Assembly (NCBI GenBank): GCA_029553165.1
Contig: JAKPCT010000185.1
Span: forward strand, 62,001-126,000
Length of the DNA: 64,000 nt
DNA from: Bacillota bacterium
GTDB taxonomy: Bacteria; Bacillota; UBA4882; UBA8346
Reading direction: 5' to 3'
Part shown: positions 3,036 to 62,288 of the stretch, piece by piece
How the letters are laid out: every line of letters begins with the position of its first letter
How positions within the stretch are numbered: position 1 is the stretch's first letter
Position numbers and translations under genes: made by a program
Notes under the pieces: model-generated
Seen by the model: the letters and a program-made list of their open reading frames with translations, nothing else
Told to the model about the DNA's origin: nothing
Database searches by the model: none

Positions 3036-3046
3036 AGGAGCAAATC

Positions 3047-5020: not shown

Positions 5021-5038
5021 TGTGTTTCTGACGATATA

Positions 5039-5092: not shown

Positions 5093-5176
5093 TTTGGATA
5101 TCCTTGATAATTTATTAGCCCTTTAAGTAGGTGTCGATCAATAAGTTAACCTGCTGATAATGCAAGGAGGTAAACC

Positions 5177-6016
5177 ATGCCTGGGAATAAAGTAGCATTA
5201 GGATTAGCTTTAATCTGTGCCTTAATTGCATCAATAATTGTATATCGGATTATGAAGCAGAATGATCAGCCACAAGTTGTTGAAGTGCCAAAAGTTCCAG
5301 TTGTTTATGCCAAGGCGACAATACCGGCACGGACAGTGATCAGCGCTGAACAGTTAGAGATTCGCCAGATTCCCGAAGATGCGGTAATTCCGGACTCTTA
5401 TTCGAAGATTGATGAATTGGTTGGTCTGGTCACTAAAGCTGAAATTGTACAAGGAGAACCAATCAATAAAAACCGCGTCTTACAAAAAGGGCAGACAATG
5501 GGTTTATCGTTCGTTATTCCTCCGGGTAAGCGGGCGATTACGATTTCGATCAATGAAGTTATTGGCGTAGCTGGATTTGTAAAACCGGGTGAACGGGTAG
5601 ATTTGATTGGGACGATTGAACCCAAAGATTCGGGCAGTGGTTCTGTCAGTTGGACAGTAATCCAGGATGTTGAGGTTTTAGCAGTTGCTCAAGAGATGGG
5701 TGAACCGGTTAAAGATGAGAAGAAAGATGCCAAGAAGACGGAGCCGAAACTGGCTACTTCGGTTACACTGGCAGTAACACCTCTTCAAGCGCAAAAGATT
5801 GCCTTAGCTGAAGAAAAAGGGGTATTACGGTTGACGTTAAGGCCGTTACTTCGGGAAGAAGAACTTAATTTGTTACCAGTCAGTGAAAGTAATTTAATAC
5901 CGGGGCGACCAACACCTCCTAGACCGGCCACTCCGGCTGAACCGCAACCTCAAATACCAAAACGTACTATTGAAGTTATTTCGGGTGGTAAATCACAAAT
6001 AATCACGGTTAATTAG
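5177..6016 (+). CDS. cpaB: CpaB/RcpC Flp pilus assembly protein
   Basis: Periplasmic or membrane-anchored assembly factor. It has an N-terminal membrane anchor (residues 5-25), a SAF domain (about 45-110, with VVYAKATIPARTVISAEQL), then the RcpC/CpaB domain (FVIPPGKRAITISINEVIGVAGFV and KPGERVDLIGTIE). A Lys/Glu-rich insert near residue 180 and a Pro-rich C-terminal linker (RPTPPRPATPAEPQPQ) are visible. ATG 5177 follows AAGGAGG. It is the first gene after the 20-bp terminator and probably starts a second Tad transcript running through tadC. Confidence 0.92.
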   Translation: MPGNKVALGLALICALIASIIVYRIMKQNDQPQVVEVPKVPVVYAKATIPARTVISAEQLEIRQIPEDAVIPDSYSKIDELVGLVTKAEIVQGEPINKNRVLQKGQTMGLSFVIPPGKRAITISINEVIGVAGFVKPGERVDLIGTIEPKDSGSGSVSWTVIQDVEVLAVAQEMGEPVKDEKKDAKKTEPKLATSVTLAVTPLQAQKIALAEEKGVLRLTLRPLLREEELNLLPVSESNLIPGRPTPPRPATPAEPQPQIPKRTIEVISGGKSQIITVN

Positions 6017-6042
6017 TTTAAGTTTAGGAGGAAGATCAATAA

Positions 6043-7269: not shown

Positions 7270-7278
7270 GTGGAATAA

Positions 7279-8490
7279 TTGACAGGAAAAATTAAAGTAC
7301 TAGTTGTGGATGATATTGCCGATACACGGGAAAACCTACGCCGGTTACTCCAATTTGATTCGGAGATTGAGGTGGTTGGTGAAGCTGCTAATGGTGAAGA
7401 AGCAGTTATTTTTGCCCGAAACCTGTTGCCGGATATTATTTTAATGGATATTAATATGCCGGTAATGGATGGAATTCAAGCAACCAGTAAAATTTCGCTG
7501 GAATTTCCGCAAATCGGAGTCATTATTTTGTCAGTCCAAGGGGAACAGGAATATCTTCGTAAAGCAATGTCGGCCGGTGCCCGGGATTACTTGACCAAAC
7601 CGCCGGGTAGTGATGACTTGTTGCGGACGATTCGCCAGGTTTATGAGAATGAGAAGTTACGCTTGCAGATGCTGACAATACCCGAAGAACCACAACGGAA
7701 ATCCGGGCAAATCTTTAGTGTCTTCAGTACCAAGGGGGGAGTTGGTAAGTCAACGATCGCCGTTAATTTAGCAGCGGCAATTGCGCAAATATCAGGTAAG
7801 AAGACGGTCATTGTCGATCTGGATCTCCAGTTCGGCGATGTCGCAATGTTGCTTGATTTAGTACCGCGCAGGACTGTCTCGGATCTGGTAAGTGAACCGG
7901 ATCTGCTGGAACCGAAGACAGTTGAAAGTTATCTGTTGAACCACCCGTTAAGTGGTCTTAAGGTTTTACCGGCTCCGATCAGGCCTGAATATGCTGAAGT
8001 GGTCCATAATAATCACATTGAAAATATTTTAACCGTTTTAAAAGGGAACTATGATTATGTAATTGTTGATACCCGGCAATCATTTGATGATATCACATTA
8101 ACCGCTTTAGACCAGGCAGATACGATTCTGGTGGTATCAACATTGGATGTCCTGACAATTAAGAATGTGAAACTGGGATTGGAGGTAATGGCATCCTTAC
8201 ATTATGAATCTTCAAAGATCAAATTGATCTTAAACCGTGAAACAGCGGATATGGGTGTATCGGTTAAAGATTTGGAAGAGAGCATTAAGTTTCCGGTGAG
8301 CTGTTCGTTACCGAGCGATGGTAAGTTGGTCGTTATGGCAGCAAACCGGGGAACTCCGTTTGTAATCAGCGAACCAAAAGCGCCAATCTCCGATTCATTG
8401 TTTAAATTAGCGCATGACTTAACCGGAATCCCGGAAACCAAAAAAGACAAGGCCGGATTTGGATGGGGAAAACTGCTAGGAGGTAAGTAA
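7279..8490 (+). CDS. cpaE: CpaE/TadZ-type receiver–ParA ATPase
   Basis: Localises the Tad machine. Residues 1-125 are a receiver domain that keeps the phosphorylatable Asp (IILMDINMPVMDG) and the late Lys (DYLTKPP), unlike many TadZ proteins where these are lost. Residues of about 145-380 are a MinD/ParA-like ATPase with the deviant Walker A KGGVGKST (about residue 152) and DLDLQFGDVAMLL. The TTG start has AGGTGG ten bases upstream and sits 9 bases after cpaC. The retained Asp suggests it can be phosphorylated, possibly by the upstream kinase, but this is inference. Confidence 0.92.
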   Translation: MTGKIKVLVVDDIADTRENLRRLLQFDSEIEVVGEAANGEEAVIFARNLLPDIILMDINMPVMDGIQATSKISLEFPQIGVIILSVQGEQEYLRKAMSAGARDYLTKPPGSDDLLRTIRQVYENEKLRLQMLTIPEEPQRKSGQIFSVFSTKGGVGKSTIAVNLAAAIAQISGKKTVIVDLDLQFGDVAMLLDLVPRRTVSDLVSEPDLLEPKTVESYLLNHPLSGLKVLPAPIRPEYAEVVHNNHIENILTVLKGNYDYVIVDTRQSFDDITLTALDQADTILVVSTLDVLTIKNVKLGLEVMASLHYESSKIKLILNRETADMGVSVKDLEESIKFPVSCSLPSDGKLVVMAANRGTPFVISEPKAPISDSLFKLAHDLTGIPETKKDKAGFGWGKLLGGK

Positions 8491-8491
8491 G

Positions 8492-9868
8492 ATGTCACTG
8501 TTAGCCAGGATTGAGAAAGAGAAGAATACTTCGGCATCTCCGGTAGAGAAAGCAGAAAAGACTACAATTGGTTACCAACCAAAGCAAAATACCACTGATC
8601 CGTTGAAGAATATTAAAAAGCGAGTGCATGAAAGTTTATTAAAAGAGGTGGCTTCAGAGGTTTTGGACCGGAGTGATGAGCCAGAGATCCAGGAGCAACT
8701 TAAAGCTAAAATTGAGGAGATTATTGGGTTTATCCTTGATCATGAGTATCCTGCTACCACTCGAAATGAACGTCTGAAGATCATCAATGAAATCAATGAT
8801 GAAGTTTTAGGGTTTGGACCAATCAATTCATTGATCCTTGATCCAACGGTATCGGAGATTATGGTTAACGGACCCCAACAGGTTTATGTGGAACGGCAGG
8901 GCTTGTTGGAATTATCACCGGTTAAATTTCGGGATAATGATCATGTATTGCATGTGATTGAAAAGATCGTTTCTCCCATTGGACGGCGAATTGACGAGTC
9001 AAGCCCAATGGTTGATGCCCGATTACCGGATGGATCTCGTGTTAATGCAATCATTCCGCCCCTTGCTTTAAAAGGTCCGACAATTACGATTCGGAAATTT
9101 TCGAAAGAACCATTTACCGTTAATGATTTGGTTAACTTTGGAACCTTAACCCATGAGATGGCTCAATTTCTCGAAGCTTGTGTCAAGATCAAACTGAATA
9201 TTGTGGTCTCGGGTGGGACCGGTAGTGGAAAGACAACAACATTAAACGTGTTATCTTCTTTTATTCCGGCAAATGAGCGGATTGTAACAATTGAAGATGC
9301 AGCGGAGTTGCAACTCCGTCAGGAACACGTCGTTTCTTTGGAGACCAGACCGGCGAATATTGAAGGAAAAGGTGCGATCACCATGCGCGATCTGGTCAAA
9401 AATTCACTCCGGATGCGTCCGGACCGGATTGTAGTCGGTGAGGTCCGTGGTGGTGAGGCATTAGATATGTTACAGGCGATGAATACCGGGCATGATGGTT
9501 CGTTAACGACCGGGCATGCGAACACCCCGCGAGATATGTTGGCCAGATTGGAGACGATGGTGTTGATGGCAGGGATGGATTTACCAGTCAAAGCAATTCG
9601 GGAACAGATCGCGTCGGCAGTGGACCTGATCGTCCAACAGGCTAGGTTGCGGGATGGGAGCCGCAAGATCACCCATATTACCGAAGTTCAAGGGATGGAA
9701 GGAGATATCATTACGCTCCAGGATATCTTTGTCTTCGAACAGACGGGTGTTGATGAACGTAACAAAATTATTGGACGTTTAAAACCAACCGGGATTAAAC
9801 CAAAGTTCTTTGACCGCTTTGAAGTATCAGGAATCAAACTGCCACCGGAGTTATTTAGTAATTTCTAA
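8492..9868 (+). CDS. cpaF: CpaF/TadA pilus-assembly ATPase
   Basis: Hexameric secretion ATPase that powers Flp pilus extension (and retraction in some bacteria). It has a CpaF-type N-terminal domain (about 40-180, with GFGPINSLILDPTVSEIMVNG), Walker A GGTGSGKTTTL (about residue 241), an Asp box, Walker B DRIVVGEVRGGEALDML and the His box TTGHANTPRDMLARLE. Its 458 residues are typical. ATG 8492 follows GGAGG and is one base after the cpaE stop codon, so the two are translationally linked. Confidence 0.96.
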   Translation: MSLLARIEKEKNTSASPVEKAEKTTIGYQPKQNTTDPLKNIKKRVHESLLKEVASEVLDRSDEPEIQEQLKAKIEEIIGFILDHEYPATTRNERLKIINEINDEVLGFGPINSLILDPTVSEIMVNGPQQVYVERQGLLELSPVKFRDNDHVLHVIEKIVSPIGRRIDESSPMVDARLPDGSRVNAIIPPLALKGPTITIRKFSKEPFTVNDLVNFGTLTHEMAQFLEACVKIKLNIVVSGGTGSGKTTTLNVLSSFIPANERIVTIEDAAELQLRQEHVVSLETRPANIEGKGAITMRDLVKNSLRMRPDRIVVGEVRGGEALDMLQAMNTGHDGSLTTGHANTPRDMLARLETMVLMAGMDLPVKAIREQIASAVDLIVQQARLRDGSRKITHITEVQGMEGDIITLQDIFVFEQTGVDERNKIIGRLKPTGIKPKFFDRFEVSGIKLPPELFSNF

Positions 9869-9891
9869 TTATTAAGCTGTGGAGTATAGCC

Positions 9892-10881
9892 ATGATACTA
9901 GCAATTATTCTAATTTTTATCGCTGTTTTTCTGGTTATCTATTCATTGCTGGGGATGTTCTTCAATCGTGAGATTGATGTTAAAACCAGGATGAATACTT
10001 ATATTAATGCCGTTACTGCTGATTTAAAAGCCAAAGATAACAAAGTTAATATTAGTTTGCAAGCAAAGGACAGCGATAAAAATAAGCAGTTGCGGGAGAT
10101 CTTTGAAAAGTATGGTAAACAGTTTGAAAACCGTAGTTATATTAAGAAGATTGAGTTTGAATTGCAAAAAGCGGACCTGCCCTTGAGAGGGTATGAGTTC
10201 TTATTTATGGTTTTGGGGATGTGTGTCGGTAGTGTTTTCTTATTTTTTCTCATTAATCGCAATATCATTTCAATGGTAGTTGCCGGAATTTTAGGAATAA
10301 TCGGGCCGATCTTTTTTGTCAAGATTAAACAGCAACGGAAACTCCAAAAATTTAACAGTCAGATCGGGGATGCGTTGGTGTTAATCTCAAACTCGTTAAA
10401 AGCCGGATATGGATTTATGCAGGCAATTGATATGGTTGCCAAAGAGATGACCCCGCCAATCCAGACGGAGTTTGGACGGGTAATCCAGGATATTAACCTG
10501 GGGACAACGACCGAAGATGCATTAGTGCTGCTGACTGAGAGGGTAAAGAGTCCGGATTTGGACTTAGTAATTACGGCAATGTTGATCCAACGGCAGATTG
10601 GTGGTAATTTGGCCGAGATCCTGGACAATATCTCCAACACCATCAGGGAGCGGATCCGGATCCATGGAGAAGTAAAGACGTTAACTGCCCAAGGAAGATT
10701 ATCAGGCTTTATCATTGGATCGTTGCCGGTGGCTTTGGGCTTGCTATTACTACTGATCAATCCGAAATATATTACAGAGTTATTTACCGATCCCCGGGGA
10801 CAGTTGATGATTATCTATGCTGTGGTTGCCGAAGTGATTGCCATCTTAATTATCAAGAAGATTATCGCGATTAAAGTTTAA
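9892..10881 (+). CDS. tadB: TadB inner-membrane platform protein
   Basis: Polytopic membrane protein that couples the CpaF ATPase to the pilus. It carries an N-terminal membrane segment, paired segments near 110-150, the T2SSF domain (about 165-290, LVLISNSLKAGYGFMQAIDM) and two C-terminal segments. The length (329) is normal. ATG 9892 follows GGAG. It is paired with tadC, its paralogue, as in other tad loci. Confidence 0.92.
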   Translation: MILAIILIFIAVFLVIYSLLGMFFNREIDVKTRMNTYINAVTADLKAKDNKVNISLQAKDSDKNKQLREIFEKYGKQFENRSYIKKIEFELQKADLPLRGYEFLFMVLGMCVGSVFLFFLINRNIISMVVAGILGIIGPIFFVKIKQQRKLQKFNSQIGDALVLISNSLKAGYGFMQAIDMVAKEMTPPIQTEFGRVIQDINLGTTTEDALVLLTERVKSPDLDLVITAMLIQRQIGGNLAEILDNISNTIRERIRIHGEVKTLTAQGRLSGFIIGSLPVALGLLLLLINPKYITELFTDPRGQLMIIYAVVAEVIAILIIKKIIAIKV

Positions 10882-10903
10882 CAACAAGGGAGGCAAAAGT
10901 GAT

Positions 10904-11821
10904 ATGGTTGAGACCGCAATTATCCTAACTTTTATCAGCGTCTCTTGTTTAGCTTACAGTATAATTCAGGGCGTCACCGGCCGTGATCGCCAAATCAAGA
11001 CCAGACTGGAACGGTTAAAGCCGGTCCTGCCGATTTATAGTCAGACTGACAATTCATTGGATCAGCCCTTTATCAGTCGGATCTTAGGTCCTTTTTTTAA
11101 TAAAATTGCACAGGTTGCGTTACGGCTTACGCCACAAAATATTCGTAAGCGGACCGAACTGTTGTTGGATCAGGCCGGTAACCCTGCCAATTTGGGTGTG
11201 AATGAATTTCTAGTACTTAAAACCATGATTCGGCTGGGCCTGCCCTTAGTAACATTTTTAATCGTCAGGCCATCCAATAAGGTGGGTTTTTTATTAGTTG
11301 GAGCAGTGTTAATAATTGCCATGATCTTGCCTGATATGATTCTCAAGCGAATGGTCCAAAAAAGAAGAGAAACAATTGCTGCCGAATTACCTGATACCCT
11401 TGACTTACTGACAGTCAGTGTTGAAGCAGGTTTGGGGTTTGACCAGGCGTTACTGAAACAGGTTGAGAAGACAAAAGGACCACTCTCGCAGGAGTTTAAA
11501 CGGGTGTTACATGAGATCAGGATCGGGACAACCCGCAGGGACGCTTTGCGGAGTATGGCTGAACGTACGGCGGTTGAGGATTTGCAGACTTTTGTCGCTG
11601 CGGTCATTCAAGCCGACCAGTTGGGAGTCAGTATCGGAAATGTGTTGCGGATTCAGTCCAGTCAATTACGGCAGAAACGGAGGCAACGGGCGGAAGAGAA
11701 AGCCCAGAAAGCCCCGGTGAAGATGTTGATTCCGATGATCTTATTCATCTTTCCCAGTCTGTTCATTATCCTCTTAGGCCCCGGAATTTTGCAGTTGATT
11801 GATAACTTTATGAAGATGTGA
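10904..11821 (+). CDS. tadC: TadC inner-membrane platform protein
   Basis: Second T2SSF-family platform protein. The T2SSF domain includes LPDTLDLLTVSVEAGLGFDQAL, followed by IRIGTTRRDALRSMAERT and a C-terminal hydrophobic pair (MLIPMILFIFPSLFIILLG). It is 305 residues. ATG 10904 follows GGGAGG. It lies 22 bases after tadB. The next gene starts 10 bases after its stop codon, so the beta-helix protein is probably co-transcribed. Confidence 0.93.
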   Translation: MVETAIILTFISVSCLAYSIIQGVTGRDRQIKTRLERLKPVLPIYSQTDNSLDQPFISRILGPFFNKIAQVALRLTPQNIRKRTELLLDQAGNPANLGVNEFLVLKTMIRLGLPLVTFLIVRPSNKVGFLLVGAVLIIAMILPDMILKRMVQKRRETIAAELPDTLDLLTVSVEAGLGFDQALLKQVEKTKGPLSQEFKRVLHEIRIGTTRRDALRSMAERTAVEDLQTFVAAVIQADQLGVSIGNVLRIQSSQLRQKRRQRAEEKAQKAPVKMLIPMILFIFPSLFIILLGPGILQLIDNFMKM

Positions 11822-42575: not shown

Positions 42576-42756
42576 TACTAAGATTTCAATAAATTTGGGA
42601 TAAGAATTCAGCAGTACCTAATAACAGCCTTAAATTTATAGATGGTTGTTTGATGCAATACTGAATTCTTTTCAGATAGATATTCAAGATTCAGTAGGAC
42701 TTCAGGCAATTTGCTGCTTGAGGATACTACTGAGTGACAAGAAAGGAGGTAAGGAC

Positions 42757-45075
42757 ATGGAAAATGATGATTTCAGGGATGAAAGCTTAGGATTAAATGG
42801 AGAAAAACCTAAGAAGTCTAAGAAGAAAAAAGCTGTACTGGAAGACGGTACAGATAAAATAGATGTGAATTCTCAAACTCAAACTAAAAAAGTAAAGTCC
42901 AAGAAAAAATCGACTTCCAAGCGGAATAAAAATAAAAAATCAACTGTGGTTGAAGTTGCCCAAAGTGATTTAGAGAAAACAGGTAGCCTTCAACCAACGG
43001 GTCAGGGTATCGTCCATGATTTACAGGTTCGAGTTGTTGAAAAGAAAAATCTTAACCGGGCAGCGAATGAACAATTGGATTTAATACCGGAGGTAAAAAA
43101 TTTACAAGGCGGTAAAGTACAGTTGGGTCCTGTACTTTCGCAAAAAAAGGTTGTTGAAACAGCTCAGTCAACAATTCTGCCGTTTGCAGCAGTTAAAGTT
43201 CGAAATATTGATGTTAAGATTAAAAATTTAACAACTGAAATAATCCCTAATAAAGTGATTGTTCAAGGGATTATTCATGAACAACTGTATTTTGTAGGTA
43301 CCGATGATATTGTTCATCATTTGGCAGATGATATTCATTTCAGTACTTTCTTAGATATGCCTGGGGCAATGCCTGGGATGAATGCCACTGTGAATGTAGT
43401 TGTTGAAGATGTTATTACCGAACTGGCTCCGGATGGGCTTTCAATAACTAAAAAGGTCGTCCTTGAAGTTTTTGTAAAGGTTACTGAAACAGTCCAGGTA
43501 AGCTTTTTACCAGGGTCCGGACCACCGCTGTTATTAAAAGAGGTTATTGGTGAAGATTCGACCCAAACATTGATTGAAACTGATTTCACTTTACCAGAGC
43601 CGGCAATCAAAGTTGATGAGATCGTTGGTAGAATTGATGATCTTGAAGTTGAAATAATCCCAGATAAAGTTATTATCCAAGGAGTTCTCCACAAACAGAT
43701 CTTCTTTGTAGGGAACGATAACATTGGCAAACATCAGGCTGAAGATGTTCATTTCAGCACGTTTGTAGACATCCCCGGAGCAGCGCCCGGTATGGATGTC
43801 CATGTGTCTCCGCGGATTGAAGCAATCATCTTCCATTTGGTAAGTCCTACTTTACTTCGCCAAAAAGCAGTACTGGAGTTCTTTGTTAAAGTAACTGATA
43901 CGGTACGTCAAAATGTAACCGTTGGTGCCGGACCACTCTTTAAAGTGGAAGAGTTTATCGGTGAAGGTGTCGTGCAGGAATTGAGTGAAACTGTAGTAAC
44001 TCTTGATCTGCCGGCAATTAAAGTACGGGAGATTGTCGCCCAAATTAGAGACTTAGAAACATTTATTATTACCGATAAAGTAATTGTTCAAGGAATAATA
44101 CATAAACAGATCTTCTATATCGGAACCGATAATATTGAGCATCATCAAGCAGAAGACATTCCGTTTGCAGTCTTCATCGATATCCCTGGTGCAGTGGCAA
44201 CCGATCAGGTTCAGATCAATCCGGTAATTGAAGCAGTCTTCTTTGAATTGATTGCCCCAACGCAACTGCGACAAAAGGTGATCGTTGCAATCAATGCTGT
44301 TGTCGCCCGTGAACTCCAAATCAATCTGGTACTTGACATTGGACCGCTTTATAAAGTGGAACAGGTAATTGCGGAAAACACCAAACAGGAAATGGTTGTA
44401 CGCCGTGAAATGATACCTCCGCCACCGCCGGTACTTCCAATTACGATCTCTGAAGAAATATTAGTCTTCCCGGAGGTTGTAAGGGGCGAACAACAGATCA
44501 TCGTCCGGAACGAAGTTGATTTACCAGTAACGGCAGTCAAGATTAAAGAGATCCAGGCAATGATTACCGACCTGAAAGCAAATGTGATTGCTGACGCTGT
44601 CGTTGTTGAAGGAACAGTTGAAAAGACCGTCTTCTTTGTCGATACTGACAATCTGGTCCGCAGCCTCACTGAAGAGGTACCGTTCTCGATTCTGGTTAAT
44701 ATACCTGGAATTACGCCGGAGCAAGCGGTTAGTGTTGCCGTCGAGATTGAGAATATCAGCTTTGCCTTGGATGATGATGGTAATACTGTAATCCAAAATA
44801 TCGTCCTGAAAGCGATTGTCACCGGTCAAGAGGGAACAGAAGTCAGTGTGGTCACTGATGTTACCGGACCCGGAATTGTACAGACCAAAGTCAGAGTAAG
44901 AGCTTTCGTGTTAACTCCGGACGGTCCGGTGTTGCAAGAGCTTGATGTTGTAACCGACGTCTCCGGGCCGGGAATTGCTGGAGTAGAGCGGCAAACCTTA
45001 CTGTTGGATGTAGTTGATGATGGTAATCCAAACCCGGTGCCGGTAGATGTCGTGGTACGGGTAATCTTGGAGTAA
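42757..45075 (+). CDS. Protein with four SPOCS (DUF3794) repeats and a Lys-rich N terminus
   Basis: 772 residues, probably a spore-coat or spore-envelope structural protein. Residues of about 20-60 are a highly basic Lys/Ser-rich region (KPKKSKKKKAV; KSKKKSTSKRNKNKK). Four homologous SPOCS units begin near 144, 282, 419 and 592, each with the pattern A-KV-EI-xx-I-DLE, PDKVIIQGVLHKQIFFVG and a D-HFS-F-DIPGA segment. The C terminus has two shorter repeats (VTDVTGPGIV; VTDVSGPGIA). SPOCS domains occur in SipL and other spore-morphogenesis proteins. ATG 42757 follows AAAGGAGG; the upstream TTG lacks a site. No LysM domain is seen. Confidence 0.85.
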   Translation: MENDDFRDESLGLNGEKPKKSKKKKAVLEDGTDKIDVNSQTQTKKVKSKKKSTSKRNKNKKSTVVEVAQSDLEKTGSLQPTGQGIVHDLQVRVVEKKNLNRAANEQLDLIPEVKNLQGGKVQLGPVLSQKKVVETAQSTILPFAAVKVRNIDVKIKNLTTEIIPNKVIVQGIIHEQLYFVGTDDIVHHLADDIHFSTFLDMPGAMPGMNATVNVVVEDVITELAPDGLSITKKVVLEVFVKVTETVQVSFLPGSGPPLLLKEVIGEDSTQTLIETDFTLPEPAIKVDEIVGRIDDLEVEIIPDKVIIQGVLHKQIFFVGNDNIGKHQAEDVHFSTFVDIPGAAPGMDVHVSPRIEAIIFHLVSPTLLRQKAVLEFFVKVTDTVRQNVTVGAGPLFKVEEFIGEGVVQELSETVVTLDLPAIKVREIVAQIRDLETFIITDKVIVQGIIHKQIFYIGTDNIEHHQAEDIPFAVFIDIPGAVATDQVQINPVIEAVFFELIAPTQLRQKVIVAINAVVARELQINLVLDIGPLYKVEQVIAENTKQEMVVRREMIPPPPPVLPITISEEILVFPEVVRGEQQIIVRNEVDLPVTAVKIKEIQAMITDLKANVIADAVVVEGTVEKTVFFVDTDNLVRSLTEEVPFSILVNIPGITPEQAVSVAVEIENISFALDDDGNTVIQNIVLKAIVTGQEGTEVSVVTDVTGPGIVQTKVRVRAFVLTPDGPVLQELDVVTDVSGPGIAGVERQTLLLDVVDDGNPNPVPVDVVVRVILE

Positions 45076-45219: not shown

Positions 45220-45702
45220 TTATACTTGTGAACATTTGTTGGTTAATACAGGGAGGGTTTCTTTTGATAAGATTGTAATTTGAAGATTGATGTTGGTCCA
45301 ATAGTCGATCTTGTTGCCGGTGATGTAGGAATAGGTTGTTGTATCAACATTCCATTTTGCTTTCATATCGGGATTAATGCCGGATACCTTTTGAAGCACT
45401 GAAAAAGGTGCTTGGGAGGTAAACGTCAGGTACTGATTATGCTTAGTGATAACCGTAAAATAATATGAGCAAAGGCCACTGATAATAATATTGTTGTTAA
45501 GCAAAACAACACTGATATTTTTGATTTCAGTTGTTAACTTTCTTATTTTCATAATTTCTTCCGGCAATTGAAGTTTATTATGTTGAGTGAGACTGAGTTT
45601 TAAATTAGCTACAACCAAGTCGACTTCGGCTAGGATTTCGGATGGCAGACAAGCAGTGAGCGTAATCCGGTTATCTTTATTCACAGCAATATTGGTAAAC
45701 AT
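45220..45702 (-). CDS. Single-SPOCS-domain protein
   Basis: 160 residues. The second half shows the SPOCS pattern seen in the four-repeat protein next door: ISVVLLNNNIIISGLCSYYF, then TFTSQAPFSVLQKVSGINPD and a final beta segment ending INLQITIL. The first 65 residues are unassigned. It is the last gene of a minus-strand operon containing a zinc-ribbon gene and three glycosyltransferases. ATG 45702 is preceded by GGGTGA. A role in the spore envelope is inferred from the domain and neighbours. Confidence 0.72.
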   Translation of the reverse strand: MFTNIAVNKDNRITLTACLPSEILAEVDLVVANLKLSLTQHNKLQLPEEIMKIRKLTTEIKNISVVLLNNNIIISGLCSYYFTVITKHNQYLTFTSQAPFSVLQKVSGINPDMKAKWNVDTTTYSYITGNKIDYWTNINLQITILSKETLPVLTNKCSQV

Positions 45703-46005: not shown

Positions 46006-46716
46006 TTAGGGAATGATTTTACCGGCAATCCATTTCTCTAATTTGATTTGATCGGGAGGTGCGAGTACGCTTTGAAGATGTTCACTGTGGTCGTGTTTAC
46101 TGTAGCGTGTGTATTTATTGTTAATATCTTCAGGGCGTAACCAGCCATAGTGTTTGACACGCAGATCCGACTGATAGACTCGTGGATATTTTAGAACTTC
46201 CAGCGGAACGCGGCCACAGTGGAGCTTACTCCTGCTCCAGGTGTAGGTTTGTTGCGGAATATATCGAAAAAGCATCCGGACTTTTTTGACCCAGGGATTC
46301 CAACCGCCATCGATACGGTAATGTTCTGGATCACCCCAGAGATCAAAGAGGCGGAATTCGACTGCATCAAATTCATCTTGATTGATTAGATCTTTTACTT
46401 CATAAGGGAAGCGTTCTTCAAAGATTTCATCAGCATCAATTGCCAAGATCCAGTCTGGATTAGCTTGAATGGTATAGTTCCACAGCTTTAACCGGACAAG
46501 GCTCTCATCGGTTTCAAAGAGCGGTTCTTCTTCCTGGCAAAGGAGTACTTTTGGGAAAGAACGGCAAATTGAAGGAGTATCATCCGTGGAAGCATCATCA
46601 AGAATGATAATCTGGTCGGCATAAGATGAAAGATGGGTTAAGACCTCCTGCAAGTAACGGTTAGCTTCATTACGGACAATCATCATCGCGGTTAGACGTT
46701 GCCTTAAATCACTCAA
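46006..46716 (-). CDS. Family 2-type glycosyltransferase
   Basis: GT-A-fold glycosyltransferase of 236 residues. Nucleotide-sugar binding is seen in MMIVRNEANRYLQEVLTHL and IIILDDASTDDT, and the metal-binding DxD in ILAIDADEIFE. The C-terminal part has several Trp/Arg-rich segments for the acceptor. It resembles SunS-like or LPS core transferases in its RNEA start. TTG 46716 follows AGGAGG. It is third in the minus-strand operon. The sugar and acceptor are unknown. Confidence 0.85.
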   Translation of the reverse strand: MSDLRQRLTAMMIVRNEANRYLQEVLTHLSSYADQIIILDDASTDDTPSICRSFPKVLLCQEEEPLFETDESLVRLKLWNYTIQANPDWILAIDADEIFEERFPYEVKDLINQDEFDAVEFRLFDLWGDPEHYRIDGGWNPWVKKVRMLFRYIPQQTYTWSRSKLHCGRVPLEVLKYPRVYQSDLRVKHYGWLRPEDINNKYTRYSKHDHSEHLQSVLAPPDQIKLEKWIAGKIIP

Positions 46717-46728
46717 AACGGTATCCTC

Positions 46729-47859
46729 CTAAATGATTGTTCTGCTGATCAAATCCTGCCAGCGCTTTTTCCAATTTTGCAGTGTAAAACATTGGGCGGT
46801 CGCGTGGGCATTGGCCCCCAGTCTTTGACATTCCGCTCTGTTTTCAATTAACATTTTTACCGTCTCTAAAATACTGTGACAGCTTGGATTGATTATTAAG
46901 CCGTTATGGTCATGAATAATATAATCAGTTAACCCGCTGTTCTGACCGGTAATGATTGTTTTGCTGGCAGCCATTTGGCGCAGGCATTCCATCCCTAATT
47001 CCTGATGTTGTTTGGCGGGGAATAAGACGATGTCAATCGCTTTGGAAACATCGTCAGAGAATGGCTTCACGCTAAAGAAAGAGCGTTGGTGCGTGGTGGA
47101 CCATTCTTTTAAAAAGTTAACTGCGGTTTCAGGACCATTGGCGTTGATCAGGAAATTTACTGAAGAATGGTCATTAAGAAGAATCTCCATTGCCTGAAGG
47201 GTTTCACTGATTCCCGAACCGGGCAGGAGTGTCCCGTAAAAGAGGATGTTTACTGAATCAGCATTCAAATCAATCTTTAGATCAGCCAGACGAAATTGTT
47301 GGTCAACTTCAGACTCCGTAGGTACGAATTCCGGAATAACTTCAAATTGATGCTGTAATCCGGTCCAGGTTGCCGTAGCCCAATGGATCAGAGTACTCCC
47401 GGGGGTGACCACCTTTAGCGGTGAATTGATGGCGATCAGGAGTCGCCTTTTCCATTCTTTACGGTCAATCTCTGTTGGTAAGGAGGATTCAAATAAGGGA
47501 TCATCCCAATTAATCGAGTGTGCAACAGCGATCGAACGTTCATGGACTTGGGGGTAGGCAAGGATTAAATCAAAGTAAATTGCCCAGTCGACACCTTGAG
47601 TTTTTTCGTAAAAATCGTCGGAAGCCTTGGGGTAGGTATAAAATTGGTGCTCGGGACTTAAATATCCCAATAATGGTACTCCGGGGAGAAGCTCGGCTTT
47701 CCAACCATTGCCGATTTGGAACCAGCTAACTTCATAGCCGAGTTCAATCAGAAGTTTTGTCAATTCGACAGCGTAGATCCATCTTGATGGGGAAATGATC
47801 TTATATGAGATTGGGTCAACTAACATTAAAGTAGCAATTCCAACATTCCCTTTTGACAT
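46729..47859 (-). CDS. GT-B glycosyltransferase, divergent paralogue
   Basis: 376 residues and clearly related to the next gene upstream (shared AVELTKLLIELGYEVSWFQI and LLPGVPLL segments). Compared with that paralogue, the N-terminal Gly-Gly-Ala-Glu motif is replaced by SPSRW. The second Glu of the E-x7-E motif is lost (ELGMECLRQM against EGTSLSCLEAM). It may therefore be catalytically altered or act as a partner subunit. ATG 47859 follows GGGAG and lies 19 bases after the paralogue. Confidence 0.8.
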   Translation of the reverse strand: MSKGNVGIATLMLVDPISYKIISPSRWIYAVELTKLLIELGYEVSWFQIGNGWKAELLPGVPLLGYLSPEHQFYTYPKASDDFYEKTQGVDWAIYFDLILAYPQVHERSIAVAHSINWDDPLFESSLPTEIDRKEWKRRLLIAINSPLKVVTPGSTLIHWATATWTGLQHQFEVIPEFVPTESEVDQQFRLADLKIDLNADSVNILFYGTLLPGSGISETLQAMEILLNDHSSVNFLINANGPETAVNFLKEWSTTHQRSFFSVKPFSDDVSKAIDIVLFPAKQHQELGMECLRQMAASKTIITGQNSGLTDYIIHDHNGLIINPSCHSILETVKMLIENRAECQRLGANAHATAQCFTLQNWKKRWQDLISRTII

Positions 47860-47878: not shown

Positions 47879-49000
47879 TTAACTAAAAATCTGCATAATG
47901 ACCTTAGCCCAGCGTGCTTTCCAGCGTCCGAGGCTGAAAGCTTCTGCGGTCAGCTGTGCCTGTTTTCCCAATTTCGTTGCAAAATCCCGTTCGTTAATCA
48001 GTAATTCCAGCGCTTTGATTAGGGTTCTGGTATTCAGAGGCCGTAACAGCAGTCCATTATAACCATCAATGATTAAGTCAGTGAGTCCGCCGACACATCC
48101 GGCAATAACAGCTTTGCCACTGGCCATTGCTTCCAGACATGATAATGATGTACCTTCGGATGCTTTGGTCGGTATCAGGACAATATCTGCTTTACGGTAA
48201 ACCCCGGCCATTTGATGGGGTGGCTGCCAGTAGTAGTATATGTTTTCAAAGTTACTGGCCCACTTTAACAGATCGCGTTCCTGGAAATCAGTATGGCCTC
48301 TGCCAACAATATGAAATTCAACTTGCGGATATTTGGCTGTCAGATATTCAGCGGCGGCAATTGTCTCATTGATACCACGGACGGAAGTTAAGCGCCTTGG
48401 AAAGAGTACTTTAATTTTCCCGGGTGATGTTGCCGATTGATTCGGGTAAAAACAATTTAAATCAACGAAGTTGGGGATGTATTCCAGTTTATTGCCAAGA
48501 CCAGGCCATGTTGCATTGATAAAACGGATCGTGGCTGTATCACAGGAGACCACCTTTGTTGGCCGATTGATGGCGCAATACCAACGGTAACGCCATTCTG
48601 TACGCTCGTGTTCAGTAGGAATAATACTGTCCCAGATGGAGTAATCCCAATAGATACCATGGGAGATCGAGATACTCTTCGGATAAGCCTGCGGATAAGC
48701 CAAAAGAGTACTGAAATAAATTGCATAATCAATTTGTTCGGCTTGTTCATGGAAGGCTTGGTTGAGAGTGGGACAAGTCTGATAATCACTTTTGCCAATT
48801 GGAATACTGAGTAACGGGACCCCAGGAATGATCTCTTGCTCCCATCCGGAACCAATCTGCCACCAGGCAACATTATATCCTAGTTCTAATAGTAATTTGG
48901 TAAATTCCACACCATAACGTTCGGCTCCGCCGTAAATTATTCGTTGGCCGTCGTTGTGCAGATGATAAGTTGTGAGAATTCCGACACGTTTTTTTGTCAT
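47879..49000 (-). CDS. GT4-type glycosyltransferase
   Basis: GT-B enzyme of 373 residues. It has GGAERYGVEFTKLLLELGYN at the acceptor-domain start, KVLFPRRLTSVRGINETIAA at the beginning of the donor domain, and the complete E-x7-E motif in SEGTSLSCLEAMASG. Retaining transfer from a nucleotide sugar is expected. ATG 49000 follows CAGGTG. It lies directly downstream of the TasA-like genes on the same strand, and a decayed copy of its first 30 codons survives at about 49652-49751. Confidence 0.88.
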   Translation of the reverse strand: MTKKRVGILTTYHLHNDGQRIIYGGAERYGVEFTKLLLELGYNVAWWQIGSGWEQEIIPGVPLLSIPIGKSDYQTCPTLNQAFHEQAEQIDYAIYFSTLLAYPQAYPKSISISHGIYWDYSIWDSIIPTEHERTEWRYRWYCAINRPTKVVSCDTATIRFINATWPGLGNKLEYIPNFVDLNCFYPNQSATSPGKIKVLFPRRLTSVRGINETIAAAEYLTAKYPQVEFHIVGRGHTDFQERDLLKWASNFENIYYYWQPPHQMAGVYRKADIVLIPTKASEGTSLSCLEAMASGKAVIAGCVGGLTDLIIDGYNGLLLRPLNTRTLIKALELLINERDFATKLGKQAQLTAEAFSLGRWKARWAKVIMQIFS

Positions 49001-49086: not shown

Positions 49087-49545
49087 TTAACCTGACACTG
49101 AAATTGCCACAAATACAAAATCAGTATGGAGTGATTTATTGAGTAGTGTTGGGCCGCTCCGGTTATCCGGGACAACCAGTGAGATATTAATTGCAACCTC
49201 TTCTGTTGGGGTAAAAGTAGAAATAACTAATTGGTTTTGCAAACTAATTAGGCTTCCACTGTATTTTTGCTCAGGATTAGTGGCTGAAATATAGACTGTA
49301 GCCTCTAATGCATTGGCTAACATGGTTGCATCCAGATCAGTAGTCCCCAAAGCAGGCCCCCAGTCAGCGGTCAGATATACCTGTGCATTGACGCTACCGG
49401 TATTTACGACGGCAATAGTTTCGGCTATTGTCTCACCAACCTCTAAAACTCGATTGAAGATTGCGGAGGAGGGATTAATTGAGATCTCTAAGTTATAGGT
49501 TCCAGCTTGATTGTTACTGTTGGTTTGGGAGAAAGTAAAGGCCAT
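49087..49545 (-). CDS. TasA/camelysin-like protein, copy 1
   Basis: 152 residues with no signal peptide. The layout matches the TasA/camelysin fold: LEVGETIAETIAVVNTGSVN then AQVYLTADWG, LANALEATVYIS, YSGSLISLQNQ and INISLVVPDNRSGPTL, ending FVFVAIS. The N terminus (MAFTFSQTNSNNQAGTYNLE) resembles the start of mature, already processed TasA. It is about 70% similar to the two upstream copies. Its own leader has lost the sigma-K-like box that copies 2 and 3 keep (TATAAACTG instead of CATAAACTA, and no AC). Expression may therefore depend on read-through. Confidence 0.72.
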   Translation of the reverse strand: MAFTFSQTNSNNQAGTYNLEISINPSSAIFNRVLEVGETIAETIAVVNTGSVNAQVYLTADWGPALGTTDLDATMLANALEATVYISATNPEQKYSGSLISLQNQLVISTFTPTEEVAINISLVVPDNRSGPTLLNKSLHTDFVFVAISVSG

Positions 49546-49610
49546 GCTTGATTCACCATCCTTCTGTCAGTTTATAGGTATTACCTAGTATATTGCAGAA
49601 AGAGATAGAT

Positions 49611-49751
49611 GTGACTAAAGCATGGTAGTAGTTTTTGGAGCTTTTGATGAAATTTATTTTCCACACCATAACGTTCCGGTTCAGCCGTAAATCTTCGTTG
49701 GCCGTTGTACAGATGGTAAGTTGAGAGAAGTCCGACGCTTTTTTGTTATAG
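49611..49751. pseudogene. Fused remnants of two gene starts (cgeB-like and GT4)
   Basis: Bases 49611-49655 match the leader and start of the cgeB-like gene (compare 51036 onward: GTGACTAAAGCA, then a GGAG site and TTGATGAAA). Bases of about 49652-49751 match the first codons of the minus-strand GT4 gene (compare 48901-49000; CCACACCATAACGTTC and GTTGGCCGT are shared). The GT4 start codon has decayed (ATG to ATA). The two halves face each other, which is what a tandem duplication followed by a deletion would leave. Confidence 0.8.
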
Positions 49752-49774
49752 TCCATCTAACATAGTTAATAACT

Positions 49775-49809
49775 AAAATTGGCCATTCATTACTGAATTG
49801 ACCAACTTT
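49775..49809 (-). terminator. Terminator-like hairpin after TasA-like copy 2
   Basis: AAAATTGGCC/GACCAACTTT (49775-49784/49800-49809) form a stem using G-T pairs where the copy-3 hairpin has standard pairs. The stem is thus kept despite base changes. A poorer version follows copy 1 (about 49040-49073). Confidence 0.6.
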
Positions 49810-49829
49810 AAATTTTATGCTGGTTGGGC

Positions 49830-50282
49830 TTAGTTTGCAATTGCCACAAATACAAAATTAGTATGGATTGATTTACTGAGTAAGGTGGGACCGCTCCGGT
49901 TATCGGGGATAACCAGCGAGATCTGAATAATAGTGTTACTTGTTGGAGCACAATCATTTATAACTTGTTGGTTTATAAGGCCAATTAGGCTTCCATGATA
50001 TTTTTGATCTGGAGGATTAGCTGAAACAACGACTGTAGCCTCTAATGCATTGGCTAACAGGGTTGCTTCCAGATCAGTAGTTCCTGAAGCAGGACCCCAA
50101 TCGGCTGTCAGGTATACATCAGCATGAGCATTACCGGTATTTACGACGTTAATCGATCCGTGAATTGTATCACCAACTCCTAAAACCTGATTGATGATTG
50201 CGGCGGCAGGGTTGATCGAGATCTCTAAGTTATAGGTTTCAACGTGGTTGTTACTGTTGGTTTGGGCAAAAGTAAATGCCAT
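49830..50282 (-). CDS. TasA/camelysin-like protein, copy 2
   Basis: 150 residues, same fold and start as the other copies (MAFTFAQTNSNNHVETYNLE; LGVGDTIHGSINVVNTGNAH; VYLTADWGPASGTTDLEATL). It carries one Cys (NDCAPTS) that the others lack. No signal peptide and no membrane segment are present. It has its own leader with a sigma-K-consensus promoter and its own 3' hairpin, so it can be expressed as a single gene. Function is inferred from the fold: fibre- or surface-forming protein. Confidence 0.75.
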   Translation of the reverse strand: MAFTFAQTNSNNHVETYNLEISINPAAAIINQVLGVGDTIHGSINVVNTGNAHADVYLTADWGPASGTTDLEATLLANALEATVVVSANPPDQKYHGSLIGLINQQVINDCAPTSNTIIQISLVIPDNRSGPTLLSKSIHTNFVFVAIAN

Positions 50283-50314
50283 GCTTAATTCACCAACTTT
50301 CTCCGGTTTGATAA

Positions 50315-50341
50315 TAGTTTATGGTAGAAAGAAATAAGAGT
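50315..50341 (-). promoter_or_regulatory. Putative sigma-K promoter of TasA-like copy 2
   Basis: On the minus strand AC (50341-50340), 16 bases, then CATAAACTA (50323-50315) match AC-N16-CATANNNTA exactly, about 33 bases before the start codon. Confidence 0.7.
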
Positions 50342-50410
50342 TAACAGTAGAAAAGAATGAATAATGCAATCATTTTGGTGTTGAATATCAATTAATTTTT
50401 AGTTGATAAA

Positions 50411-50449
50411 TTAAAGTTGGCCTTTCATTACAGAATTAGCCAACTTTAA
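50411..50449 (-). terminator. Terminator-like hairpin after TasA-like copy 3
   Basis: TTAAAGTTGGC (50411-50421) pairs perfectly with GCCAACTTTAA (50439-50449); on the minus strand it is followed by a T-rich stretch. Confidence 0.7.
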
Positions 50450-50462
50450 ATCTTTGTACCGG

Positions 50463-50921
50463 TTAAGCTTCGACTGAAATCGCCACAAACACAAAATCAG
50501 TATGGAGTGCTTTATTGAGCAAGGTTGGGCCGCTCCGGTTATCTGGCACAACCAGTGAGATATAAACTGTGGTATCTGCTGTTGCGGATATATCAACAAT
50601 TTGTTGGTTTTGCAGGCCAATTAAGCTTCCACTATACGCTTGGGTAGGATCGGGATCGGCTGAAACATAGACCGTGGCCTCTATTGCATTGGCTAAAAGG
50701 GTTGCTTCCAGATCCGTGGTCCCTGAACCAGGACCCCAATCAGCTGTCAGGTATACCCGGGCATTAACGTCACCGGTATTTACAATGGTAATATCTTCGG
50801 CTACTGTATCGCCAACTTCTAAAACTTGATTGATGGTTCCGGCAGCGGGGTCAATGGAGATCTCTAAGTTATAGGTTTCCATCTGGTTGTCACTGTTGGT
50901 TTGGGAGAAAGTAAATGCCAT
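50463..50921 (-). CDS. TasA/camelysin-like protein, copy 3
   Basis: 152 residues and the first gene of the array. It shows LEVGDTVAEDITIVNTGDVN, VYLTADWGPGSGTTDLEATL, YSGSLIGLQNQQ and LVVPDNRSGPTLLNKALHTD. The leader is divergent from the cgeB-like gene and carries a sigma-K-consensus box. Signal-peptide loss is shared by all three copies, so it is ancestral in this array and not a local truncation. Export could follow mother-cell lysis if these are spore-coat or crust proteins. This is inference. Confidence 0.75.
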   Translation of the reverse strand: MAFTFSQTNSDNQMETYNLEISIDPAAGTINQVLEVGDTVAEDITIVNTGDVNARVYLTADWGPGSGTTDLEATLLANAIEATVYVSADPDPTQAYSGSLIGLQNQQIVDISATADTTVYISLVVPDNRSGPTLLNKALHTDFVFVAISVEA

Positions 50922-50953: not shown

Positions 50954-50980
50954 TAGTTTATGGTGTAAAACAATAAAAGT
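50954..50980 (-). promoter_or_regulatory. Putative sigma-K promoter of TasA-like copy 3
   Basis: On the minus strand AC (50980-50979), 16 bases, then CATAAACTA (50962-50954) match AC-N16-CATANNNTA exactly, 33 bases before the start codon, the same geometry as in copy 2. Confidence 0.7.
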
Positions 50981-51070
50981 TAATAGTAAAAATGAATGAT
51001 TAATGCAACCATTTTGATTGGTGCTGAATATCATAGTGACTAAAGCACTGCAGTAGTCTTGGAGGTATTG

Positions 51071-52045
51071 ATGAAAGTTCTTTTTACTAATGATGCACCG
51101 TTGATCAAGTATGGAATGGCAGCCGGGTTTTCGCAGGCAGGGCACCAGGTAAAGATTATGTATGGTCCGGAGGAACAGTTATGGGGGATTGAACCGGAGG
51201 ATCAGGTGAAACGCCTCTCAACTGCTTTGGAAGATTACCGTCCCGACTTGGTTTTTACCGAAGGGCATCCCCGAATTGAACCCAGTGCGATTTGTGAAAC
51301 GGTCAAAAAATTTGGTATCCCTCATTTTTACTGGGCGATTGAAGATCCGGTCTGTACTGATTTAACAATTGCCACTTATGCGCCACGGGTCGACTATATC
51401 TTTACGACAACGGTTGAATGTATCCCGAAATATAACAAGATTGGCCAGAAAGCAGAGGTGCTGTTGTTCGGTTGTAATCATGAATTTCACCGTTTTGTAG
51501 GGATTAATCAGGAGTATCAGTACGATCTTGTTCTGGTTGCCAGTAATTATTCGTCCCGTTATGAAGAGGCGGAATGGTTTGTAATGCCTTTGGTCCGGAG
51601 CGGCTATAAGATTAAAATTTGGGGAATCTGGTGGGATGATGCCACCAGGCCGGTTAACCTGCTGAAGTATCCTCATGTCTACGGCGGAATCTTGCCGTAC
51701 GAAATGCTCCCCGTGGTCTACAGTTCGGCCAAGATTGTCTTAGGAATGAACTGCGATGACAGTTCGAAGACCCAAACCTCAATGCGTCCTTATGAGGTTT
51801 TGGCTTGTGGCGGGGGATTATATGTGGGGCATTATACCAAAGCCCAGGAGTATTTATTTAAAGACATGATTTATCAACCGCGCAATACCAGTGAAACTTT
51901 GACTACGGTGCGAAGGATCTTGGCTAAAACAGACGCTGAGCGTAAAGCTCAGGCCAAACGTGGCCAATTGTTTGTATATCAGAATCATTCCTATGCTGCA
52001 AGGGCAAGACAGATCTTAGAGGCTTATAACAAAATTGTGAGATAA
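51071..52045 (+). CDS. CgeB-like glycosyltransferase
   Basis: 324-residue GT-B protein resembling CgeB, a spore maturation protein involved in glycosylation of the B. subtilis spore surface. N-terminal KVLFTNDAPLIKYGMAAGFS and HFYWAIEDP are followed by a CgeB-type C-terminal domain (YDLVLVASNYSSRY, LPVVYSSAKIVLGMN, TSMRPYEVLACGG). ATG 51071 is chosen because GGAGG lies seven bases upstream; the in-frame TTG 51059 overlaps the site. It is divergent from the TasA-like array and heads a plus-strand run of sugar genes. Confidence 0.82.
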   Translation: MKVLFTNDAPLIKYGMAAGFSQAGHQVKIMYGPEEQLWGIEPEDQVKRLSTALEDYRPDLVFTEGHPRIEPSAICETVKKFGIPHFYWAIEDPVCTDLTIATYAPRVDYIFTTTVECIPKYNKIGQKAEVLLFGCNHEFHRFVGINQEYQYDLVLVASNYSSRYEEAEWFVMPLVRSGYKIKIWGIWWDDATRPVNLLKYPHVYGGILPYEMLPVVYSSAKIVLGMNCDDSSKTQTSMRPYEVLACGGGLYVGHYTKAQEYLFKDMIYQPRNTSETLTTVRRILAKTDAERKAQAKRGQLFVYQNHSYAARARQILEAYNKIVR

Positions 52046-60284: not shown

Positions 60285-61343
60285 ATGGCAAAGACTGCTT
60301 TAATTACTGGAATAACCGGACAGGATGGCGCTTATTTAGCAGAATTGCTGTTGAATAAAGGCTATGAAGTGCATGGGATCAAGCGGCGAGTTTCATTGAT
60401 TAACACCGCTAGGATTGACCACTTATATCAAGATATTCATGAAGAAAACTGCCGTTTTAAATTACATTATGGCGATATGACCGATTCAACCAATTTAATC
60501 CGGATTTTGCAGGAGGTTCAGCCCGATGAAATCTATAACTTAGCAGCCCAAAGTCATGTAATGGTTTCATTTGAAACCCCGGAATATACGGCTAATGCAG
60601 ACGCTATCGGTACCCTCCGTCTGTTGGAAGCGATCAAACTGTTAAAACTGACCGATAGGACCAGGTTTTATCAGGCGTCTACCAGTGAACTGTACGGTAA
60701 TACGCCGGTCATCCCCCAAACCGAGACTACTCCGTTTCGCCCCAGAAGTCCCTACGCCGCAGCAAAACTCTATGCTTATTGGGTAACCGTAAACTATCGT
60801 GAAGCATACAATATTTTTGCCTGTAACGGCATCCTGTTCAATCACGAATCTCCGTTACGTGGAGAGACGTTTGTAACCCGTAAAGTAACTATCGGTATCG
60901 CCAAGATCAAATACGGGTTGCAGGAGAAGCTTTATTTAGGTAACCTGGATGCTAAACGTGATTGGGGTTATGCCGGAGATTATGTGGAAGCAATGTGGCG
61001 CATCTTGCAACAGCCGGAACCGGATGATTACGTTATCGCTACCGGGATGACCCATACGGTCCGGGAGTTTGTCGAGTTGGCATTTGCTGAGGCAGGAATT
61101 GATCTAGTCTGGGAGGGGACCGGCGTTGCCGAACGAGGAATTGACCAACAGACCGGTAAAGAGTTGGTTGTGGTTGATCTCCGTTATTTCCGTCCGACCG
61201 AGGTTGATTTATTGTTGGGTGATTATTCAAAGGCGCAGCAACGACTGGGCTGGAAACCGACGGTTACCTTTCCTGAATTAGTAAAGATGATGGTTGAGCA
61301 TGATTTGAAGCTGGTAGAAACTCAATTAGGAATTAAGAGGTAG
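60285..61343 (+). CDS. gmd: GDP-mannose 4,6-dehydratase
   Basis: First step from GDP-mannose to GDP-6-deoxy sugars. Extended SDR enzyme of 352 residues: Rossmann motif [20 protein letters not shown], the family's [19 protein letters not shown] region, catalytic [10 protein letters not shown] and [12 protein letters not shown] (YxxxK), and [20 protein letters not shown] 60285. The next gene completes GDP-L-fucose synthesis four bases later. Confidence 0.97.
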
Positions 61344-61346
61344 CAG

Positions 61347-62288
61347 ATGGATAAACAAGCAAGAATTTTTATTGCCGGACATAAGGGATTGGTTGGAACC
61401 GCGTTAATTAATCAATTGCGTTCGTTGGATTATCAAAATTTAATTGTGGCTACCAAAGAAGAGTTGGATTTGCGAGATCCATTGGCAGTTGACGCGTTTT
61501 TTGCCGCTACGCAGCCGGAGTATATTTTCCTGGCAGCAGCCAAGGTTGGCGGAATCCATGCTAACAATACTTATCCAGCAGAGTTTATCTATGATAATTT
61601 AATGATTCAGACGAACGTAATCCATAATGCCTATAAGTATCAGGCTAAAAAGTTGCTGTTTTTAGGCAGTTCCTGTATCTATCCTAAGTATGCCCCACAA
61701 CCAATCCGTGAGCGGTATTTAATGACTGGGCTTTTGGAACCGACCAATGAGGCATACGCGATTGCCAAGATTGTGGGGATTAAAATGTGTCAGAGTTATA
61801 ACCGGCAATATGGTACTAACTTCATTACCGTGATGCCGAGTAATCTGTATGGACCATTCGATAATTTTGACCTGGAGACTTCGCATGTCTTACCGGCATT
61901 GATTCGTAAATTCCACGAAGCAAAAGTTAATAAGGCTTCCTTGGTTGAGCTGTGGGGGAGTGGAAGCCCGCGCAGGGAGTTTCTCCATGTTGCTGATTTG
62001 GCTTCAGCCTGTCTGTTTTTGATGGAACATTATTCAGATAACGAACCGGTTAATGTTGGCGCCGGATTTGACATCAGTATTGCAGAGTTAGCTCAAATGG
62101 TCAAAAAAATAATTGGTTATCATGGCAAGATCGTTTGGGACAGTTCGAAACCTGATGGAACGCCACGCAAACTGTTGGATATCAGGAAGATTACCGGTAT
62201 CGGTTGGAAGCCAAAGCTTTCATTGAAAGAAGGGATTAAACAGACGTATGAGTGGTTTTTGGCAAATAAAGAATTGATAACGAGGTAA
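61347..62288 (+). CDS. fcl: GDP-L-fucose synthase
   Basis: Epimerase–reductase that converts GDP-4-keto-6-deoxymannose to GDP-L-fucose. 313 residues with IAGHKGLVGTALINQL, the catalytic FLGSSCIYPKYAPQPI and NEAYAIAKIVGIKM (YxxxK), VMPSNLYGPFDNFDLETSHV and WGSGSPRREFLHVADLASAC. Its ATG is four bases after the gmd stop codon. Together they indicate fucose or a derived 6-deoxyhexose in the polymer made by this locus. Confidence 0.97.
   Translation: MDKQARIFIAGHKGLVGTALINQLRSLDYQNLIVATKEELDLRDPLAVDAFFAATQPEYIFLAAAKVGGIHANNTYPAEFIYDNLMIQTNVIHNAYKYQAKKLLFLGSSCIYPKYAPQPIRERYLMTGLLEPTNEAYAIAKIVGIKMCQSYNRQYGTNFITVMPSNLYGPFDNFDLETSHVLPALIRKFHEAKVNKASLVELWGSGSPRREFLHVADLASACLFLMEHYSDNEPVNVGAGFDISIAELAQMVKKIIGYHGKIVWDSSKPDGTPRKLLDIRKITGIGWKPKLSLKEGIKQTYEWFLANKELITR

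Follow-up and report, generated by a model that had tools for sequence, protein, structure and literature searches.

TasA-type proteins are known as exported fibers of the biofilm matrix. Among described systems, the TasA/CalY (camelysin) group, represented by Pfam PF12389 (Peptidase_M73) and NCBIfam TIGR04090 (BsaA), is one of the closest to the genes reported here. Within TasA fibers, the N terminus of TapA resembles the TasA donor strand and starts fiber formation (PMC9674648). Archaeal donor-strand filaments have been described as TasA-like (PMC9674648, PMC11952670), and the F-ENA study assigns TasA and the archaeal bundling pili to a donor-strand category of their own (PMC11952670). On the spore side, sporulating Bacillota carry short, beta-rich spore proteins of the Ena1/Ena2/Ena3 and F-ENA (DUF4183) types, the latter with a conserved N-terminal M-P-hydrophobic hook and likely O-glycosylation (PMC11952670). 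Finally, in Clostridioides difficile the GT2 gene sgtA adjoins bclA3, both genes are sigma-K dependent, and SgtA O-GlcNAcylates BclA3 (PMC7157674, PMC3789822).

Here, we analyzed a stretch of 64,000 nucleotides (the window) containing three tandem open reading frames (ORFs), which belong to a signal-less TasA-like family that we call TAS. Like TasA/CalY, TAS has a TasA-like predicted fold and can be aligned with M73 profiles over its full length; it starts where mature TasA starts, with its N-terminal strand in the donor-strand position. Unlike TasA/CalY, it has no SipW leader, neither a sipW nor a tapA neighbor was seen, it is preceded by a sigma-K promoter and lies in an operon with glycosyltransferase and SPOCS-like genes, and its members, at about 150 residues, score below the Pfam and NCBIfam cutoffs. 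Judging from sequence, we consider it likely that TAS is a spore-surface structural protein that lacks a signal peptide, is driven by sigma-K, and is made in the cytoplasm of the mother cell.

The coordinates of the three genes and of the features around them are given in the table. The TasA/camelysin layout proposed in the initial annotation for the 150- to 152-residue products is indeed present, with small variations in the quoted motifs (LANAIEATV in copy 3; YHGSL and LVIPDNRSGPTL in copy 2). Each ATG is preceded by a ribosome-binding-site (RBS)-like stretch. The copies are 70 to 72% identical to one another (about 71%), and dN/dS between them is 0.38 to 0.48, so that they are coding genes under constraint. 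Tandem duplication gave rise to the array: direct repeats 300 and 143 nt long are found again at spacings of 737 and 639 nt, and in the scar between copies 1 and 2, what remains of the region preceding the CgeB-like gene is fused to leftover sequence from the 5' end of the GT4 gene. A search of the genome found no further TAS copy. The absence of a signal peptide was upheld as well: each reading frame is closed shortly before its start (stops 7, 12, and 12 codons upstream), so that a signal peptide cannot be encoded in these ORFs.

Table. Features of the TAS locus (window coordinates)
Feature	Position	Strand	Evidence
Four-SPOCS-domain protein, 809 aa, spore morphogenetic type	42646..45075	+	Pfam SipL, 4 stretches, 1.5e-50
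Small SPOCS-like partner, 160 aa, N terminus MFTNIAVNKDNRI resembling TAS	45220..45702	-	Pfam SipL/SPOCS, E 0.003; motif test
Double zinc-ribbon protein, 80 aa	45744..45986	-	Homologue adjoins TAS in another branch
GT2, SunS/GmaR-like, candidate protein O-glycosyltransferase	46006..46716	-	PDB GmaR 3.3e-9, SunS 8.7e-6; NCBIfam SunS 3.9e-8
Second GT4 glycosyltransferase	46729..47859	-	Pfam Glycos_transf_1 1.2e-11; same order in L037, L038, L039
GT4 glycosyltransferase, conserved operon partner	47879..49000	-	Pfam Glycos_transf_1 5.6e-26
TAS copy 1, 152 aa	49087..49545	-	ORF; 71% identical to copy 3
Duplication scar between copies 1 and 2	49611..49760	.	Direct repeats D5, D7, D8
TAS copy 2, 150 aa	49830..50282	-	ORF; AF2 model; best PDB match TasA fiber 8aur
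Sigma-K promoter of copy 2, ACTCTTATTTCTTTCTACCATAAACTA	50315..50341	-	Pattern search and reading of the sequence
TAS copy 3, 152 aa, promoter proximal	50463..50921	-	ORF; family profile versus M73; family search
Sigma-K promoter of copy 3, ACTTTTATTGTTTTACACCATAAACTA	50954..50980	-	Pattern search and reading of the sequence
Divergent CgeB-type glycosyltransferase	51059..52045	+	Pfam Glyco_trans_1_2 1.9e-18, DUF3880 5.5e-6

The resemblance to TasA is weak when single sequences are searched and becomes solid only with family profiles. As single sequences, the window proteins reached no better than E 0.03 against Pfam M73 (PF12389; 14.6 bits versus a cutoff of 22.5) and a score of 13.5 against BsaA TIGR04090 (cutoff, 60); the single-sequence matches in Pfam, NCBIfam, and the PDB were set aside as subthreshold or spurious. 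In a set of 31 family members, matches below the cutoffs were found to Pfam M73 for 9 (best, 2.8e-4) and to BsaA TIGR04090 for 6. An hhalign comparison of the TAS family with nine SipW-type M73 proteins, by contrast, gave a full-length alignment of 138 columns with a probability of 98.4 and a score of 98, versus at most 17.6 for column-shuffled and reversed controls. Profile matches to designed repeat proteins and a lectin among PDB sequences were discarded as due to composition or chance. The initial annotation had TAS begin exactly where mature TasA begins, and the profile alignment agrees, starting directly after the SipW leader: column 3 of the TAS family pairs with column 35 of the camelysin/M73 alignment. 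No protein of the genome scored above the cutoff for the M73 family, and for the one SipW model searched (TIGR02228) none exceeded 51.85, the two weak candidates scoring 27 to 28 bits, in line with the lack of a sipW-like gene reported for the window. On these profile comparisons, we regard TAS as homologous to the TasA/camelysin superfamily but as devoid of the export feature that defines its SipW-dependent members.

Structure prediction points the same way for one of the copies, and a predicted fold unrelated to TasA, named at the outset as a refuting outcome, was not what that copy gave. The AlphaFold2 model of copy 2 (pLDDT 77.5, pTM 0.70; alignment of five sequences) found as its top PDB match the cryo-electron microscopy structure of the TasA fiber (8aur; E 5.7e-6, prob 1.00, TMq 0.68), while monomeric TasA (5of2) gave a TMq of 0.56. 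The second and third matches were the archaeal bundling pili (7ueg) and the Sulfolobus 0406 filament (7pnb), at low TM-scores (0.38 to 0.39); these differ from TAS in being exported surface filaments. For copy 3, a weaker and ambiguous model was obtained (pLDDT 68.6), with nonspecific fold matches among which TasA ranked 44th. That TasA comes first for copy 2 and not for copy 3 is a weakness of these predicted folds, and given this dependence on the query, the sequence-profile result was treated as primary.

TAS is a widespread and apparently undescribed family. A sample of 399 genomes from across the phylum was searched with a profile of the three window proteins; 47 of them (about 12%), belonging to 29 genera, had matches. 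The 31-member profile gave much the same strong matches, along with other proteins at lower scores, which brings the total at E <= 1e-5 to 59 genomes; the weaker matches include G150:C1:324415-324840, independently identified as the locus of a SipW-type M73 protein. Members are about 148 to 158 residues long and begin with M-[PAS]-F-T or similar. Misannotated starts, raised at the outset as a way in which the proposal might fail, do not account for the missing signal: homologues from other genera and families are likewise signal-less, and since an in-frame stop lies 0 to 2 codons before the start in eight sampled loci, the absence characterizes the family itself and does not stem from faulty annotation. 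At three places (G204:C63, G321:C9, and G161:C153) the match is split into several pieces, possibly reflecting decaying copies or sequencing errors. Open-access literature searches turned up no report of spore TasA proteins without a signal peptide, and no link could be made between TAS and the spore proteome of Moorella thermoacetica (PMC8745062).

The AC element sets sigma-K apart from sigma-E promoters (PMC3789822). Copies 2 and 3 carry AC-N16-CATAAACTA 59 nt upstream of the start, confirming for these two copies the sigma-K-type boxes reported for this array; this does not hold for copy 1, whose upstream region contains no box by the strict pattern and whose expression may depend on read-through. 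Across the family, the strict pattern (AC-N16/17-CATANNNTA within 150 nt upstream, its elements matching the consensus in PMC3789822) precedes 18 of 41 TAS genes, where 0.31 was expected and 4 of 216 control genes had it (background: Markov shuffles and 216 other genes of the same loci). Some of the TAS genes without a strict box may be internal genes of an operon or be served by a different promoter. The genome encodes sigK (over the cutoff) and spoIVA, and spoIVA is present in all 47 TAS genomes versus 335 of 398 overall, a comparison of lists made by eye that ignores kinship. The suggested mother-cell setting is backed by conserved sigma-K promoters, by the neighborhood of glycosyltransferase and SPOCS-like genes, and by the restriction of TAS to spoIVA-bearing genomes.

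On the minus strand of the window, the three TAS genes are followed by two GT4 genes, the GT2 gene, the zinc-ribbon gene, and the gene for the small SPOCS-like protein. The order TAS-GT4-GT4-GT2-SPOCS is kept across genera, in L037, in L038 (which coincides with L007), and, up to the end of its contig, in L039. Of 41 loci examined for same-strand genes within 5 kb of TAS, 31 have a glycosyltransferase homologue, 23 have a SPOCS-like gene, and 8 have a zinc-ribbon gene; GT4 homologue matches number 40 at less than 4 kb and 1 at 4 to 9 kb, and GT2 homologue matches 25 and 1, respectively. The array thus has its conserved partners in the downstream, same-strand GT4, GT4, GT2, and SPOCS-like genes and not in the upstream cgeB-like gene. 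That gene opens a cluster of sugar-nucleotide and glycosyltransferase genes reaching position 62288; beside this long cluster, at 60285 to 62288, a GDP-mannose 4,6-dehydratase and a second NAD-dependent epimerase/dehydratase may make sugar for a surface glycan. In six loci from other lineages (L040 to L043, L056, and L071), the zinc ribbon is the sole partner, with no glycosyltransferase nearby; a SPOCS-like gene is the single partner in two further sampled loci, and in two others no partner was recognized, so that glycosylation by neighboring enzymes is not universal.

GmaR is the enzyme that O-GlcNAcylates flagellin in Listeria, and SunS attaches sugar to a peptide; both thus modify polypeptides in the cytoplasm, and since the GT2 of the operon resembles these protein glycosyltransferases, it is a candidate for polypeptide modification. 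An exclusive association of this GT2 with TAS was rejected, because homologues without TAS occur in other contexts in three genomes of the same family. In one same-family genome without TAS, a DUF6385 protein (L114:503-1276) is encoded beside a glycosyltransferase gene cluster and is possibly an alternative glycosylated surface protein. Elsewhere in the window (2758 to 11821) lies a Flp/Tad pilus locus with a Flp pilin, a secretin, and a T2SSE ATPase; the secretin suggests an outer membrane, i.e., a diderm, spore-forming member of the Bacillota. Similarly, a 1,172-residue inverse autotransporter (IAT_beta, 6.6e-29) that a same-family relative encodes some 2 kb ahead of its TAS operon (L007:2342-5860, upstream side) suggests a diderm lineage.

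A further link between TAS and its partner lies at the N terminus. The motif M-x(0-2)-F-T-x-x-A-x-N-x-x-N opens both TAS and small SPOCS-like partners (MFTNIAVNKDNRI beside MPFTFQALNENN, for example), namely, the one in the window and those of L055, L060, L062, and L070. A matrix built from TAS N termini ranked the partners above other genes with an AUC of 0.876 (for sequences that are related to one another, which makes the p-value no more than nominal), and several of the top-scoring other genes look like unrecognized partners. By the parallel with TapA, this suggests that the SPOCS-like partner is an anchor or starter. The window partner scores 18.2 bits against Pfam SipL/SPOCS (cutoff, 23.6), and several of its relatives also fall below the cutoff. 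The 809-residue four-SPOCS protein has a lysine-rich N-terminal region.

TAS is not a member of the Ena, F-ENA, or BclA families. It shares with Ena and F-ENA the general type of a short, beta-rich protein of sporulating Bacillota, but its predicted fold matches TasA, and neither the window proteins nor the family members had a Pfam match to DUF3992 or DUF4183. The likeness to BclA3-SgtA (PMC7157674, PMC3789822) lies in the arrangement of a sigma-K-dependent GT2 gene next to the gene of its spore-surface substrate (a putative substrate in the case of TAS); BclA3 itself is collagen-like, whereas TAS is without collagen repeats and has a TasA-type predicted fold.

We propose that TAS proteins are TasA/camelysin-fold structural proteins that lost the SipW leader and now start at the ancestral mature N terminus. 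Transcribed by sigma-K in the mother cell late in sporulation, they would stay in the mother-cell cytoplasm, where the forespore surface is directly accessible. There, the cotranscribed cytoplasmic glycosyltransferases would probably put an O-glycan on them, the GmaR/SunS-like GT2 acting first and the GT4 enzymes extending, after which TAS would be deposited on the forespore within the coat, crust, or exosporium. The likely adaptor in this step is the small SPOCS-like protein. From sequence and gene context, we infer that the spore location, the role of TAS as glycosylation substrate, and the adaptor function are all probable. More speculatively, TAS might polymerize through its N-terminal strand by donor-strand exchange. 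The full version of this idea, a glycosylated TasA-type donor-strand fiber built in the cytosol onto the forespore and both started and anchored by the motif-bearing SPOCS-like partner, much as TapA starts TasA fibers outside the cell, would make TAS a new class of endospore appendage or coat polymer; we put it forward tentatively, rating it as rather less probable than its opposite. Promoter, operon, and fold would also fit a coat or crust subunit that does not form donor-strand fibers but is monomeric or builds a lattice, its N-terminal strand folded back as in soluble TasA; this is a subcase of the spore-surface explanation and does not exclude it, and we regard it as quite possible, if somewhat short of an even chance. 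Soluble TasA is self-complemented by another strand (PMC9674648), and TAS members are short (150 residues), without an extra N-terminal extension; on the other hand, the best structural match is to the fiber and not the monomeric form of TasA, and the N-terminal motif is conserved and common to the SPOCS-like partner, just as TapA shares the TasA donor strand (PMC9674648).

The tight linkage of several glycosyltransferases to TAS and the large sugar-nucleotide and glycosyltransferase cluster next door could also be read as signs that TAS is a cytoplasmic scaffold or acceptor (a primer or carrier) for a spore polysaccharide and not itself a structural layer. This strikes us as improbable, since some loci have only a zinc-ribbon or SPOCS-like partner with no glycosyltransferase nearby, and the closest structural matches are filament or matrix subunits. 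Homology to exported TasA/camelysin might point to a vegetative, extracellular protein that either has a signal peptide overlooked in annotation or exits nonclassically; the stops shortly before the start, both in the eight family genes and in the window, contradict a missed signal peptide, which was rejected, and with an RBS directly upstream, sigma-K promoters, and a genome without an M73 or SipW-type match over the cutoff, we hold an extracellular role to be very unlikely. Least credible of all is a camelysin-type cytoplasmic metallopeptidase, to which the metallo-endopeptidase label of Pfam M73 and the weak TAS matches to that family might point: the invariant residues of the 31-member alignment are P, G, N, W, L, A, and F, with no invariant His, Glu, or Cys, and because the catalytic and metal-binding residue types are not invariant, this reading was rejected.

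As a spore-surface structural protein, TAS would represent a TasA domain redeployed without export, in an apparently sporulation-specific operon found in about 12% of the sampled genomes of the phylum, many of its carriers belonging to poorly studied lineages with uncharacterized spore surfaces. For glycosylated spore surfaces, it provides a defined gene list (structural protein, protein glycosyltransferase, and adaptor), and it makes the cytoplasmic assembly of TasA polymers directly testable. TAS suggests that cells also assemble proteins of the biofilm-fiber type onto spores from within and prompts the question of whether the spore form or the biofilm form is evolutionarily older.
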